From assembly GCF_014931565.1 (NCBI RefSeq), contig NZ_CP063353.1, positions 2,108,001-2,172,000 of the forward strand: 64,000 nt of DNA. The letters are read 5' to 3'. A model generated the notes under the pieces. That model had not been told where the DNA came from and ran no database searches. It saw only the letters and a program-made list of their open reading frames with translations. Both the position numbers and the translations under genes were made by a program. The stretch comes from Clostridium sp. 'deep sea' (GTDB lineage: Bacteria > Bacillota > UBA994 > PWPR01). Positions 13,602-19,699 of the stretch are shown piece after piece (the stretch's first letter is position 1; the number at the start of each line of letters is the position of its first letter).

Positions 13602-14924
13602 CTATCCTTGTTGCCATTTTTTAACTGTACTAATTAAAACATCTTTTTGATTACTTTTAGGATCTGCTAATACTTTGTTTAACAACCTTTGCAAAGTAGT
13701 GCCAATATGTTTACCGCTTAAGCCTAGTTGCATCATATCATTGCCATTTACGGCTAGGTCAACTATTTTAAGCGGTTCTTTATTAGCTAATATTGATTCA
13801 CACATAAATTTTAGCCTATATATTTTTGTAAAGTCGTAGGGTGGTTTTTTGCCTATTTTGTCTGCCACCATAAGCTTAAATAAATCATCAAGATATTCTA
13901 CCCCAATTTCAGTCATAAACTTTTTTATTTTAGTTGGTTTATAACTACCATAAGTTCGCATATGCCCTTTAATAATTTTACATACATGGTCTATTCTTTT
14001 ATTCGGCTGGCACCAGCGCTTTAGAATAACTTCTGCTAGCTCCGACGATAGTTTTTCATGACCATAAAAGTGTCCAATGCCTTTTTTATCTATGGTAAAT
14101 GTTTTTATTTTAGCAATATCATGTAACAGTGCCGCCAAACGTAACTCTACAGTATTATCTATGCAATCTAAAACACTTAAGGTGTGTTCTAAAATTGTTT
14201 TATCATGGTGTGGATTTTGCTGATTAAAGCCCTTCGCCTTAACAAGTTCAGGTAAAACTATTTTAATTAAATTTGTTTCGAATAATAATCTAATTCCTTT
14301 AGAGGGAATATTCGCAGTTAAAGTTTTAACCATCTCTGTGGCAATGCGCTCTCTGCTAATATTTTCTAAATTGTCACTGTGCTCTTTAATTGCCTCTAAG
14401 GTGTTATTTTCAATGCTACCTTCAATAACTGTTGCAAACCTAACTGCCCTTAACAACCGTAAAGCATCTTCACTAAATCTTTCAGTTGCATTGCCAACAC
14501 ACCTAATTAAACCTAGTTGTAAATCTTGTTGACCGTTAAAAGGATCTACTAGACCTTCAGCTTCATTGTATGCCATTGCATTTATCGTAAAATCACGACG
14601 AGCTAAATCCTGCTCTATATCTGCAGTAAAACTTATGTCATTGGGCCTGCGATTATCACTATACTCACCATCAATGCGTAACGTTGTTACCTCAACAGGC
14701 TCATTTTTTATCATTACAGTAACTGTACCATGTTTAATACCTGTAGGAATAGTTTTTGAAAAAATACTCTGTACCATGTTTAATACCTGTAGGAATAGTT
14801 TTTGAAAAATACTCTGTACCTTACCTCTCAAGCTGTCTCGTACAGCCCCACCAACTACCCAGGAATCATAGTTATGTTTTTTAAGTTCTTTCATTATCAA
14901 TTTTATGTAAGCTGGAATTTGCAT
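13602..14924 (-). CDS. cca: CCA-adding enzyme with damaged catalytic motif
   Basis: tRNA nucleotidyltransferase of class II, 440 residues. Intact parts: WVVGGAVRDSLRG (22-34), IPTGIKHGTVTV, RRDFTINAMAYN, ERFSEDALRLLRAVR and an HD domain (ALLHDIAK). In normal homologues about 16 residues containing the metal-binding DxD (G-D-V-D-I-A-T-S type) lie between the GGAVRD helix and the V-x-x-I-F-x-K-T-I strand. Here that slot is filled by K35 plus 15 residues encoded by a tandem copy of the next segment, read in a shifted frame. Without DxD it should be inactive in nucleotidyl transfer. The ATG has GGGGTGG upstream. Confidence 0.85.
   Translation of the reverse strand: MQIPAYIKLIMKELKKHNYDSWVVGGAVRDSLRGKVQSIFQKLFLQVLNMVQSIFSKTIPTGIKHGTVTVMIKNEPVEVTTLRIDGEYSDNRRPNDISFTADIEQDLARRDFTINAMAYNEAEGLVDPFNGQQDLQLGLIRCVGNATERFSEDALRLLRAVRFATVIEGSIENNTLEAIKEHSDNLENISRERIATEMVKTLTANIPSKGIRLLFETNLIKIVLPELVKAKGFNQQNPHHDKTILEHTLSVLDCIDNTVELRLAALLHDIAKIKTFTIDKKGIGHFYGHEKLSSELAEVILKRWCQPNKRIDHVCKIIKGHMRTYGSYKPTKIKKFMTEIGVEYLDDLFKLMVADKIGKKPPYDFTKIYRLKFMCESILANKEPLKIVDLAVNGNDMMQLGLSGKHIGTTLQRLLNKVLADPKSNQKDVLISTVKKWQQG
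14723..14820. repeat. 45/46-bp tandem duplication inside cca
   Basis: Two adjacent direct copies begin at 14723 and 14769, and a third start of the unit (CTGTACC) is at 14814-14820. The units are 46 and 45 bases and differ by one A/T in a homopolymer, which is why the copy that would come first in the protein is translated in another frame. Shared CTGTACC at the borders suggests slippage or template switching. Confidence 0.9.
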
Positions 14925-15389: not shown

Positions 15390-16577
15390 CTAATTAAATA
15401 CTTCAGTAGCCCTCTCTAATATTCCATTAATCATAGCTAAAGTCATACCGTAATTAGTAATTGGCACACCTGCTTCTTGACACATTAACATGCGGCTTTG
15501 CATGGTCTTTTTGTTTGACATACAGGCTCCACAGTGGATAACAAGGTTGTAAGAACCTAAATCACTTGGTAAATCTACACCCATAGCAAATTCAAAGTTT
15601 AAGGTTTTGCCAGTTCGTTTTCTTAATAGTTTTGGTATTTTTACTCTACCTATATCCTCATGGGTTTGGTTATGACTACAGGTTTCTACTATTAATATTC
15701 TACTATTTTCTTTTAGCTGATCTATTGCCTTAGTTCCATGTAAGAGGATATTAAAATCACCTTTATGTCTGGCAAATAGTATCGAAAATGATGTTAGTAA
15801 AATATCATTTGGTACAATTTTATCTACTTCTTTAAATGCCTGTGAATCTGTAACTACTAAATCTACTTTTTTTAAATCTGTTAGGGCACCCTCTAACTCG
15901 GTATCTCTTACCACATAAGACTTGATACCGTGATCTAAACAATCTCTTATTAATTGCACCTGAGGTAAAATTATTCTACCCTTTGGTGCTTCAGAGTCTA
16001 TGGGCACCACCATAACTACAGTACTATCATATGGCAGCAAATCACCCACTATAACATCTTCTTCAATCTCGGTGCTTAAACAATTTACAACTGACTCACG
16101 AAGATTATCAATATTTACTAGTTGAGAGGCGGAAACAAAAATACTATTTTCATATTTCTCTTTAATCTCTAGTATTTGCTGGTCATTAGCTGTATCTGCT
16201 TTATTTATAACTAAGAGATGTTTTATGTTAAAGCGTTTAAAGTTTCTTTGCGCTTCTTGATAAACCTCATAGTCAATGTCATTTATATCCATTATATATA
16301 AAGCAAAATCGGTTTTTTGATAAACTCTTGTTGTTTTTTTCACTCTAAGCTGACCTAAATCACCCTCATCGTCTAACCCTGCTGTATCTATAAATAATAC
16401 TGGACCTAGCGGTATCAGCTCCATAGCTTTATATACAGGGTCAGTTGTAGTACCTTTTATATTTGATACCAACGAAACTTTTTGGCCTGTTAAGGCATTT
16501 ATGATAGATGATTTACCTGCGTTTCTTTTACCAAATACAGCAATGTGAATTCTATTTGAATTAGGTGTTTTTCTCAT
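15390..16577 (-). CDS. hydF: [FeFe]-hydrogenase maturation GTPase
   Basis: Scaffold on which the diiron subcluster is assembled before transfer to apo-hydrogenase HydA. 395 residues: N-terminal GTPase domain with P-loop GKRNAGKSS (16-24), switch GTTTDP, DTAGL and NKAD; a dimerisation domain; and a C-terminal cluster domain with CSHNQTH (near 300) and HCGACM about 50 residues later, matching the CxH...HCxxC ligands of HydF. It is 8 bp downstream of hydG. No HydA gene lies in the window. Confidence 0.97.
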   Translation of the reverse strand: MRKTPNSNRIHIAVFGKRNAGKSSIINALTGQKVSLVSNIKGTTTDPVYKAMELIPLGPVLFIDTAGLDDEGDLGQLRVKKTTRVYQKTDFALYIMDINDIDYEVYQEAQRNFKRFNIKHLLVINKADTANDQQILEIKEKYENSIFVSASQLVNIDNLRESVVNCLSTEIEEDVIVGDLLPYDSTVVMVVPIDSEAPKGRIILPQVQLIRDCLDHGIKSYVVRDTELEGALTDLKKVDLVVTDSQAFKEVDKIVPNDILLTSFSILFARHKGDFNILLHGTKAIDQLKENSRILIVETCSHNQTHEDIGRVKIPKLLRKRTGKTLNFEFAMGVDLPSDLGSYNLVIHCGACMSNKKTMQSRMLMCQEAGVPITNYGMTLAMINGILERATEVFN

Positions 16578-16585
16578 TTTAACTC

Positions 16586-17962
16586 CTAGATATATAGATC
16601 TCTTTCACCTTGTTTTAGTCTGGCTAAATTTCCTCTTACAAGCTTTCTTACTTTTTCACGTTCTATGGTTTCAACCTGTTTATCAATAAAAATTTCACCT
16701 TTTTTTAGTAACTCTTCATCACCGTAATCTAACATGAACTCCATTAAAGTCATCAAGGCATTTGGATGACAAACATTTTGAATTTGACCAGATTTAGCTA
16801 AACGCATAAATCGATCACCTGTACGTCCATTACGATAACAAGCAGTACAATAACTTGGTACAAAACCTTCACTAACCAATTCTTTAAGTATCTCGAGGGG
16901 GCTTCTATCATCGGCTAGTTCAAATTGTTTTTTTGATTTTTTCATTTCACTCTCTTTATAGCCACCTACACCTGTGCAAGAGCCAGCGCTAATTTGAGAA
17001 ATTCCATAGTTTAGTAGCTCACGTCTTAAGGATGCACTTTCTCTAGTAGACAAAATCATTCCTGTAAAAGGAATTGCTAAGCGAATAATAGCAACCAATT
17101 TTTTAAAATGATCATCATCTACTAAATGAGGAAACATTTCTAAATCCATACCCTCTGCTTTTTGAAGTCTAGGCACTGAAACAGTGTGGAACCCTACTCC
17201 AAATTTTTCTTCTAAATGATCGTTGTGTAGCATTAAAGCTAATACCTCAAATTTATAGTCTGCCAGACCAAATAAAACTCCACCTCCAACATCATCAATA
17301 CCGGCTTCCATAGCGCGGTCAAAGGCTGTTAAATGATACTCATAATCGCCTTTTATACTCTTTTTATGAGCATTTAAATATGTTGGTTTATGATAGGTCT
17401 CTTGGAATAAGATATAAGTACCAATTTCTTTGGCTTTTAGCCTTTTATAGTCTTCTACTGTTGTAGCGGCTATATTAACATTTATTCTGCGAATTCTACC
17501 ATTAATATTTTCAGTATTATATATTGTACTTATACTATCTAAAACGTAATCTATATCACAGTTTACTGGATCTTCTCCTGCTTCAAGTGCTATTCTTTTA
17601 TGACCCATTTTTTCAAGAATTTTAACCTCTGTCTCAATTTGCTCTGTTGTTAATCTTGATCTGTTAAAATTGTTATCTCTACGATATCCACAATATGTGC
17701 AATTATTAACACAATAATTACTAATATACAATGGAGCAAACACAACTACTCTATTACCGTAAATTTGCCTTTTCACTTTTCCAGCAGTTTTATAAATTTT
17801 AGCTAACATATTTTTATCTTCAATTTGTAATAGATTAGCTATTTCTTGATGGGTTAAGGGCTCTTTATTTTCTGCTTTACGCAGTATTTGGGTAAGCTCT
17901 TGATCTGTAAGAGTTTTGGCATTTTCTAAAAGGTTATATATATATTGATGATTTATAAACAT
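16586..17962 (-). CDS. hydG: [FeFe]-hydrogenase maturase, tyrosine lyase
   Basis: Radical SAM enzyme that splits tyrosine to p-cresol and makes CO and cyanide ligands bound to iron for the H-cluster. 458 residues, full length. The radical SAM cysteines are C84, C88 and C91 (NYCVNNCTYCGYRR). The C-terminal auxiliary cluster motif CTACYRNGRTGDRFM is present around residue 370-385, distinguishing it from ThiH. It sits between hydE and hydF with short gaps. Confidence 0.97.
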   Translation of the reverse strand: MFINHQYIYNLLENAKTLTDQELTQILRKAENKEPLTHQEIANLLQIEDKNMLAKIYKTAGKVKRQIYGNRVVVFAPLYISNYCVNNCTYCGYRRDNNFNRSRLTTEQIETEVKILEKMGHKRIALEAGEDPVNCDIDYVLDSISTIYNTENINGRIRRINVNIAATTVEDYKRLKAKEIGTYILFQETYHKPTYLNAHKKSIKGDYEYHLTAFDRAMEAGIDDVGGGVLFGLADYKFEVLALMLHNDHLEEKFGVGFHTVSVPRLQKAEGMDLEMFPHLVDDDHFKKLVAIIRLAIPFTGMILSTRESASLRRELLNYGISQISAGSCTGVGGYKESEMKKSKKQFELADDRSPLEILKELVSEGFVPSYCTACYRNGRTGDRFMRLAKSGQIQNVCHPNALMTLMEFMLDYGDEELLKKGEIFIDKQVETIEREKVRKLVRGNLARLKQGERDLYI

Positions 17963-17991: not shown

Positions 17992-19032
17992 TTAACTTTT
18001 TTTAAATATAGGATCTCCTCGACCCATGTCTGGGACTAAGCCAACTTCTTTAATGACTTTTATTGATTTTAATAGTTCATTTTTGCTACTATCAGTGCTT
18101 CCTGCTTTATTTTTATATAATTCATACTTCTCTTTTACAGTTTGAGGACTTAAATTAGGCATAACTACATTTGCACCAGCTTTAAGAGCCATACTTCTTC
18201 CATCGCTATTAAGGGTAGATACTGCTGTTGCAGCTGGAATAAGTGAATAAGGTAACAATAATCTAACAAGCGCTAACATAATATAAGTGATTGGTAATGA
18301 GCCAGATTCACACTCTTTTAAAGGTGTATCGGGATGAGGTATAAAGGGCCCAATTCCTACCATCTCAGGATTAAGTTCTTTTAAGAAAAGTAAGTCATTT
18401 ACTAAATCAGCTATTGTTTGATTTGGTAAACCTACCAAAAAACCTGCACCTATATCAAAGCCAGCCTTTCTGAGATTTTTTAAACATGCAACTCTGCTTT
18501 CAAAACTCAAATTTGGGTGCATATTATCATAAATTTGAGTATTAGAGGTTTCATGCCTTAGTAAAAACCTATTTCCACCTGCATCACTAAGCCTTTTATA
18601 TGTTTCATAATCTCTTTCACCTATTGACAGAGCCAATGCACTATTTGGGGCACGCTGCTTAATCTCTTTGATAATGTCTACTAAAGATTCTGCTGTAAAA
18701 CTAAAATCTTCTCCACTTTGTAATACAAAAGAATGAAAACCTAATGTTTGTGCTTTATCTATACAAAGTAAAATCTCGTTTTTACTTAAATGATAACGAT
18801 CTACCTTTTTGTTATCTTTTCTGATACCACAGTATTTACAGTTTTGTTTACAATAATTCGAGAACTCTATTAGTGCTCTTATAAAAACACTATCGCCATA
18901 AGATTCTCTTGCAGTTTGCCATGCCTTTTCAAATAATAAGCTTGGATCTTTTAAACTGTAATTTATTACTTGCAGCAACTCATTTTTAGATAAGCTATTT
19001 TCTTTATAAAGCTTAGTTATTAGTTCTTTCAT
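17992..19032 (-). CDS. hydE: [FeFe]-hydrogenase maturase, radical SAM
   Basis: Radical SAM protein thought to act on the HydG-made iron-cysteine complex on the way to the diiron unit. 346 residues. The cluster motif is CKQNCKYCGIR (C61, C65, C68). It resembles biotin synthase-type barrels, but its place between a TM1266-type gene and hydG makes HydE the clear assignment. Its start overlaps the preceding gene by 4 bases. Confidence 0.96.
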   Translation of the reverse strand: MKELITKLYKENSLSKNELLQVINYSLKDPSLLFEKAWQTARESYGDSVFIRALIEFSNYCKQNCKYCGIRKDNKKVDRYHLSKNEILLCIDKAQTLGFHSFVLQSGEDFSFTAESLVDIIKEIKQRAPNSALALSIGERDYETYKRLSDAGGNRFLLRHETSNTQIYDNMHPNLSFESRVACLKNLRKAGFDIGAGFLVGLPNQTIADLVNDLLFLKELNPEMVGIGPFIPHPDTPLKECESGSLPITYIMLALVRLLLPYSLIPAATAVSTLNSDGRSMALKAGANVVMPNLSPQTVKEKYELYKNKAGSTDSSKNELLKSIKVIKEVGLVPDMGRGDPIFKKS

Positions 19033-19409: not shown

Positions 19410-19440
19410 AAAAAAGCTCCCCTTGTTAAGTGGAAGCTTT
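19410..19440 (-). terminator. Second leader terminator of hyd operon
   Basis: Nine-bp stem AAAGCTTCC/GGGGAGCTTT (one G-U pair, 19413-19440) followed by six T on the minus strand. It lies about 120 bases before the TM1266-type gene and downstream of the first leader terminator, so it would be a second barrier, or the 3' end of a leader RNA. Confidence 0.7.
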
Positions 19441-19486
19441 GCCTCAAGTGAATAACAACAATTAATAGGATTACCTCTATTCCTAC

Positions 19487-19664
19487 TAAAAAAACTTCCG
19501 TTAAAACGAAAGTTAGTATTCAAAAGTAAACTGATACGCTATTTAAAATAGCATTCAATTAATTATGGCTAACTTCCTTTCAGATAAGACCAGTTATGGG
19601 TCTTGGCTGTTAGGTTATTAAAATGGTTACCAAACAACTCAGTTTTCACTTTACTGCTTGGCAT
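19487..19664 (-). ncRNA. Candidate attenuator leader of hyd operon
   Basis: From the predicted start near 19664 the RNA can form GCCAAGCA/TGTTTGGT, AAGACC/GGTCTT (19586-19604), and finally an intrinsic terminator AACTTTCGTT/AACGGAAGTT (19493-19514) with seven U (19494-19488). An upstream strand GAAAGGAAGUUAG (19581-19569) is complementary to CUAACUUUC (19517-19509), which contains the 5' side of the terminator. The two pairings exclude each other, the layout of a riboswitch or protein-controlled attenuator. It lacks the conserved T-box sequence and does not match the SAM, TPP, lysine or c-di-GMP motifs I know. Ligand unknown. Confidence 0.6.
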
Positions 19665-19670
19665 ACTTTG

Positions 19671-19699
19671 ATTATATTTGTTAGTTTTAGATATGTCAA
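19671..19699 (-). promoter_or_regulatory. Consensus promoter of hyd leader
   Basis: Perfect sigma-A type promoter on the minus strand: TTGACA at 19699-19694, a 17-base spacer, TATAAT at 19676-19671. Transcription would begin around 19664, about 375 bases before the first start codon. Such a strong promoter makes control by termination in the leader plausible. Confidence 0.85.

Follow-up and report, generated by a model that had tools for sequence, protein, structure and literature searches.

A conserved leader RNA as a candidate transcription attenuator of the [FeFe]-hydrogenase maturation genes in Clostridium sp. 'deep sea' and its relatives

The hydrogenase maturation operon in the window, which is the whole stretch of 64,000 nucleotides analysed here, is preceded by a leader that very probably is a conserved cis-regulatory RNA controlling the genes of H-cluster maturation via transcription attenuation, a confidence that applies to the attenuator itself and not to its effector. 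The computed basis for this assignment consists of two hairpins, P1 and P2, at the 5' end of the leader, an antiterminator strand that lies directly 3' of P2 and overlaps it, and an intrinsic terminator in front of the first gene. An unrecognised attenuator leader had been proposed at this place in a sequence-only reading of the DNA, and the proposal is borne out by the presence of the RNA in many families, strong covariation, a mutually exclusive antiterminator and terminator, and the lack of a corresponding Rfam class. The P1 and P2 hairpins with their pseudo-symmetric tandem-GA design are, as judged from the sequences, the conserved part of this RNA, which the earlier reading had overlooked, as it had only the antiterminator.

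The features of the leader and of the operon are compiled in Table 1. As claimed before, a perfect sigma-A type promoter and a leader of about 375 nt precede the TM1266-family gene and hydE, hydG and hydF on the minus strand, and all four gene products exceed their own NCBIfam cut-offs. Only one perfect promoter match was found, while a 1.6-kb sequence should contain about nine promoter-like sites of weaker match by chance alone, and the leader of the congener (L002) has TTGACA-17-TAAGAT at the equivalent place. The 381-nt leader folds better than 100 of 100 dinucleotide shuffles (z = -4.6). Elsewhere in the window, a predicted tRNA nucleotidyltransferase ORF (13602-14924) carries at 14700-14850 on the minus strand a VQSIF...VQSIF repeat after GGAVRDSL in place of the expected DxD motif, possibly a local duplication or a sequence error.

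Table 1. Features of the leader and the hyd maturation operon, in positions of the window.
Feature	Positions	Strand	Basis and details
Sigma-A type promoter, TTGACA-17-TATAAT	19671-19699	-	12/12 consensus match; predicted start near 19664
Hairpin P1	19629-19662	-	R3 match 19664-19575 (40.2 bits); fold
Hairpin P2	19576-19614	-	R3 match; family covariation
Antiterminator 5' strand, GGAAGUUAG	19569-19577	-	Predicted fold; complementarity test
Spacer hairpin between P2 and terminator	19529-19560	-	Fold only
Antiterminator 3' strand, CUAACUUUC	19508-19516	-	Overlaps the 5' arm of the terminator
Intrinsic terminator 1	19488-19514	-	9-bp stem (19514-19493), 4-nt loop, seven T (U tract 19494-19488)
Second terminator-like hairpin, AAGCUUCC..GGGGAGCUU + U6	19413-19440	-	Read from sequence; window-specific
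TM1266-family gene, first gene of the operon, 86 aa	19029-19289	-	TIGR03959, 91.3 bits (cut-off 60.8); PF21699; PDB relative 2NZC
hydE	17992-19032	-	TIGR03956, 423 bits
hydG	16586-17962	-	TIGR03955, 615 bits
hydF	15390-16577	-	TIGR03918, 539 bits

The family was recognised when the leaders of TM1266 genes were gathered from relatives and a similarity among them was noticed by eye. A regular expression that leaves the central helix unconstrained matches 39 of 120 TM1266 leaders compared to 0-3 in shuffled leaders, whereas many of the sampled TM1266 leaders contain no recognisable motif. Within the matched leaders the free NNNN arms form on average 2.96 of four pairs versus 1.74 when the arms are swapped (0/2000). 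Using an alignment of 20 sequences, which are mostly matches of this expression plus one that was picked by hand, RNAalifold reproduces the hand-drawn structure CCU [GA] NNNN [RA] GGG loop CCU [GA] NNNN' [RA] GGG, hence an architecture of short helices with tandem G.A-type loops between them. Covariation across homologous leaders, which had been named as the check on the earlier proposal, is strong: 161 double-change cells were counted versus 52 after shuffling (0/500), which is far above slid controls, with strong covariation in the NNNN helix, and the Clostridium set is 99% paired (0/500); alignments made with Infernal are fitted to the model and lean toward its structure. The leaders hence share a conserved, covarying domain that resembles an aptamer. 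In the P2 module the conserved letters of one strand recur almost unchanged in the other, so that the NNNN helix contains a pseudo-two-fold axis, and many leaders carry a pair of such hairpins one after the other (L012, L023, L026, L070, L104, L105, L183 and L187).

The leader of the window is not easily recognised as belonging to this family. Plain BLASTN retrieves only the leader of the congener, as a weak match, and of the two single-hairpin covariance models R1 gives the window leader only 5.8 bits and R2 misses it. Since neither model recovers the window, the two-hairpin model R3 was built. In Clostridiaceae genomes that have the window-like, low-scoring subtype of TM1266 the leaders read CCUAACAG...UCUGAAAGG, and R3 comprises P1 and P2 of 16 Clostridiaceae leaders, with window and congener excluded from the training. 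R3 detects the window leader at 19664-19575 with 40.2 bits and an E-value of 4.5e-5 in 64 kb; across the 3.8-Mb genome it has no other match, and the E-value is 0.0027. These and all other E-values rest on a shortened calibration. The leader of the congener scores 40.1 bits; a first look with R3 at the whole genome had missed it. The window leader also shares the order of P1 and P2, the tandem-GA loops and the place in front of TM1266 and hyd genes. As an independent model finds it, we regard the window copy, on this sequence-level evidence, as a divergent member of the conserved hyd-leader RNA family.

In the window, P1 is predicted as GCC-AA-GCAGU-AA-AGU-GAAA-ACU-GA-GUUGU-UU-GGU, with its 5' edge only a few nucleotides from the predicted start, and P2 as CCU-AA-CAGC-CA-AGACC-loop-GGUCU-UA-UCUG-AA-AGG, which is a divergent form of CCU-GA-NNNN-RA-GGG..CCU-GA-NNNN'-RA-GGG. 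The outer loop of P2 is with AA/AA close to the canonical GA/RA letters, whereas the inner loop CA/UA departs from the RA/GA of the relatives, as it does in the congener, and a C.U mismatch occupies the position of a pair in relatives.

The complete intrinsic terminator with its seven U, described earlier at 19493-19514, was found again as a 9-bp stem with a 4-nt loop, and it is preserved with compensating changes in the congener and in Clostridium. The pairing of its 5' strand with an upstream segment, formerly drawn at 19569-19581, is real as well, but its edges had to be corrected, since the antiterminator comprises 9 bp between GGAAGUUAG (19577-19569) and CUAACUUUC (19516-19508). Compensating changes preserve this pairing as GGAGGUUAG/CUGACUUCC in the congener and as GGAGGUUAG/CUGACUUUC in Clostridium, and neither the window nor the congener nor C. 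brassicae has lost any of the nine pairs. Moreover, across 24 leaders the complementarity between the 3' strand of P2 and the terminator arm lies above that of all 1000 between-leader swaps (0/1000), and in another set of leaders one of 500 swaps was as good. The antiterminator 5' strand has GG (19577-19576) in common with the 3' strand of P2, and the rest of it is occupied in the minimum-energy fold by an extension of P2 (19621-19617/19573-19569). The expression platform and the conserved domain are hence predicted to be mutually exclusive, an exclusion that partly depends on the weak P2 extension because only 2 nt are common to P2 and the 9-bp antiterminator. For the complete leader, the fold with P2 and terminator is computed at -46.1 and the antiterminator at -41.6 kcal/mol, i.e., 4.5 kcal/mol in favour of P2 plus terminator. 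For a shorter transcript, still lacking the 3' arm of the terminator, the values are -40.9 kcal/mol for the P2 fold and -41.6 kcal/mol for the antiterminator, a gap of 0.7, and in this energy model such a transcript end is plausibly the point of decision. The second terminator-like hairpin could be read in the window sequence as described, but it is absent from the leader of the congener; it may be a further checkpoint or a remnant. Just upstream of it lies another hairpin, and both follow terminator 1.

Since P2 and the antiterminator are mutually exclusive, formation of P2 should favour termination and thus the OFF state. We therefore assume that an effector would stabilise P1/P2 and keep the antiterminator strand in P2, which would let the terminator form and switch the operon off. 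Without effector the antiterminator would form and RNA polymerase would continue into TM1266-hydEGF. In some relatives, i.e., at L195 and in the ECF transporter cases described below, the GGGG strand of P2 lies in the ribosome-binding site, where translation would be blocked instead.

The distribution of the RNA was determined by covariance-model scans, which covered whole genomes of sampled sets and made no use of neighbouring genes. R1 matched in 44 of 398 genomes of the window's phylum, and R2, whose training sequences come partly from the scanned groups, in 119 of the 398 (about 30%) and in 58 of 341 Clostridia. A scan of eight clostridial genomes with R1 gave no match, which is probably due to a loose first look, as R2 finds G398 at 3.9e-8. 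Confident matches in the phylum lie nearly all before hyd maturation or TM1266 genes, and many Clostridium genomes have the RNA as well. Among the 90 R2 neighbourhoods that were read, 66 have TM1266, hydE, hydG or hydF first or in the operon, six precede transporter, hydrogenase-subunit-like or nitrogenase-like genes, and 18 have no assigned target, nearly all of the latter apparently lying in coding sequence and taken as chance. The rejected matches in coding sequence are L278, L302, L294, L299, L303, L304, L306, L334, L343, L347, L349, L351-L353 and L356-L358 from R2 and L193 from R1; those among the 40 loci of one batch all have E > 2.5e-4. L278 and L302 are near-identical and probably the same coding stretch. 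L337 has no assigned target.

The targets outside the maturation genes are diverse. An SsuA/NMT1-type ABC operon stands behind the RNA in three distant genomes (G157, G411 and G616; L183, found with R1, L288 and L290), which we take as a clue to the signal, and a different SsuA-like ABC operon follows it at L305. The binding proteins of the former three operons are closely similar. A gene for an ECF transporter S component (PF12822) follows the RNA in two genera (L322 as well as L184/L185), with a short form of the motif overlapping its ribosome-binding site in all three cases. Furthermore, the RNA stands before hydrogenase-subunit genes of the NuoE/NuoF-like kind at L307/L317 and before a nitrogenase-like operon of nifH type at L268/L314. 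The match at L317 (G678:C162) is weak with 23 bits, and a long ORF there starts like a FeFe-hydrogenase or NADH dehydrogenase G subunit; at L314 (G616:C59) the motif is followed by a NifH-like gene and then by nitrogenase component 1-like genes. In two genomes (L315, L316) the RNA is followed by a single operon of hydF and aspA, the latter encoding aspartate ammonia-lyase, and family f18 has an extra copy of the RNA within the operon, between TM1266 and hydG (L014, L073, L197 and L198).

Two kinds of effector come into question. Slightly the more probable of the two, at a little less than an even chance, is the TM1266 protein itself, which would bind to the pseudo-dyad hairpins and hold P2 in its folded state in a case of autogenous attenuation by an RNA-binding protein. 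This is favoured by co-occurrence, pseudo-dyad and gene order. In a sample of 96 HydE-positive genomes the motif is present in 48 of the 79 with TM1266 and in none of the 17 without (Fisher p 2.7e-6, a statistic that counts genomes without regard to phylogeny), a match in the TM1266-free genome G071 lying in coding sequence and not being counted as a real motif. The pseudo-two-fold axis of P2 suits an oligomeric protein, and TM1266 is usually encoded first after the RNA. Moreover, TM1266 figures in annotations as a putative regulator that lacks a known target, and its GRMG.P and tGkLG motifs are near-invariant across 90 homologues. However, RNA binding by the TM1266 family is putative only, and the predicted regulon also takes in transporters. 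The latter rather favour a directly sensed metabolite, since riboswitches often precede transporter genes, and it is quite possible, if short of likely, that the RNA is a classical riboswitch whose tandem-GA hairpins recognise a metal or small molecule linked to H-cluster synthesis. In line with this, the conserved letters are those of the internal loops, transcriptional and translational platforms both occur, and the regulon includes the SsuA/NMT1-type ABC operons and the ECF S components. On the other hand, no junction or pseudoknot pocket is seen, and the absence of the RNA from the 17 sampled genomes with HydE but without TM1266 is unexpected if a ligand alone is sensed. It is improbable that the RNA acts as an aptamer which binds an H-cluster assembly intermediate or a component specific to this assembly, such as an Fe-CO/CN-cysteine synthon; if it did, no RNA sensor of an organometallic precursor would be known before it. 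The RNA is accordingly a concrete candidate for what TM1266 acts on, or else it represents a new class of orphan riboswitch. In the latter case its regulon is a pointer to the signal, as it includes, besides hyd genes, an SsuA-like ABC importer, an ECF S component and genes that resemble those for hydrogenase subunits and for nitrogenase. Such an RNA could be of use for the control of biological hydrogen production.

A constitutive partial terminator or an RNA-stability element that acts without effector would alone be enough for a reduced downstream expression, but this is unlikely given that the GA/RA loop letters and the antiterminator are conserved and that the RNA is placed before several unlinked operons. 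Attenuation by a leader peptide is highly improbable, as the 31-codon frame MPSSKVKTELFGNHFNNLTAKTHNWSYLKGS (AUG at 19664 to UAG at 19569) is not conserved and has no Shine-Dalgarno sequence, the overlapping frame of the congener continues beyond the terminator, in most Clostridium leaders P2 is not covered by a frame, and the covariation is at the RNA level.

We return to the RNA attenuator and its relation to known systems. With Rfam 15 no covariance-model match was obtained in the window or in the leaders that belong to 26 related loci, so that a known Rfam class is rejected and this check, like that on covariation, does not go against the earlier proposal, in agreement with the earlier failure to recognise a T-box, SAM, TPP, lysine or c-di-GMP motif. 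A description of this leader was not found in the literature, although the survey of 224 motifs (10.1093/nar/gkx699) may mention it, and neither was an account of RNA-level regulation of [FeFe]-hydrogenase maturation genes. The hyd-leader RNA resembles guanidine-II in its pair of small hairpins, in which conserved elements are repeated, but its conserved letters lie in internal loops (CCUGA/RAGGG), and it has no Rfam match. Guanidine-II (mini-ykkC) riboswitches carry both hairpins in one leader, with conserved ACGR apical loops. Rfam 15 also includes a Moco family. Among the riboswitches for molybdenum and tungsten cofactors (Moco/Wco), some tandem Wco riboswitches are located upstream of hydrogenase genes (PMC9481103). 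Unlike these, the RNA described here has no match in Rfam 15 and targets the HydE/G/F/TM1266 maturation genes. As in protein-dependent attenuation, the operon may be under autogenous control by the small protein that its first gene encodes, and the tandem G.A pairs of the RNA resemble the k-turn core, but the RNA has no three-nucleotide k-turn bulge and binding by TM1266 is putative. L7Ae/L30-type k-turn feedback leaders and PyrR are examples of such protein-dependent attenuation. Like transcription-attenuating riboswitches, it is a 5' leader in which the 3' strand of a structured domain competes with an antiterminator and a terminator precedes the operon, and as with riboswitches generally there are variants at the ribosome-binding site; unlike them, the window RNA consists of two short tandem-GA hairpins with neither junction nor pseudoknot and has no assigned Rfam class or ligand. 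The hyd-leader RNA is thus, as a candidate, a new class of cis-regulatory RNA on the familiar terminator/antiterminator platform.
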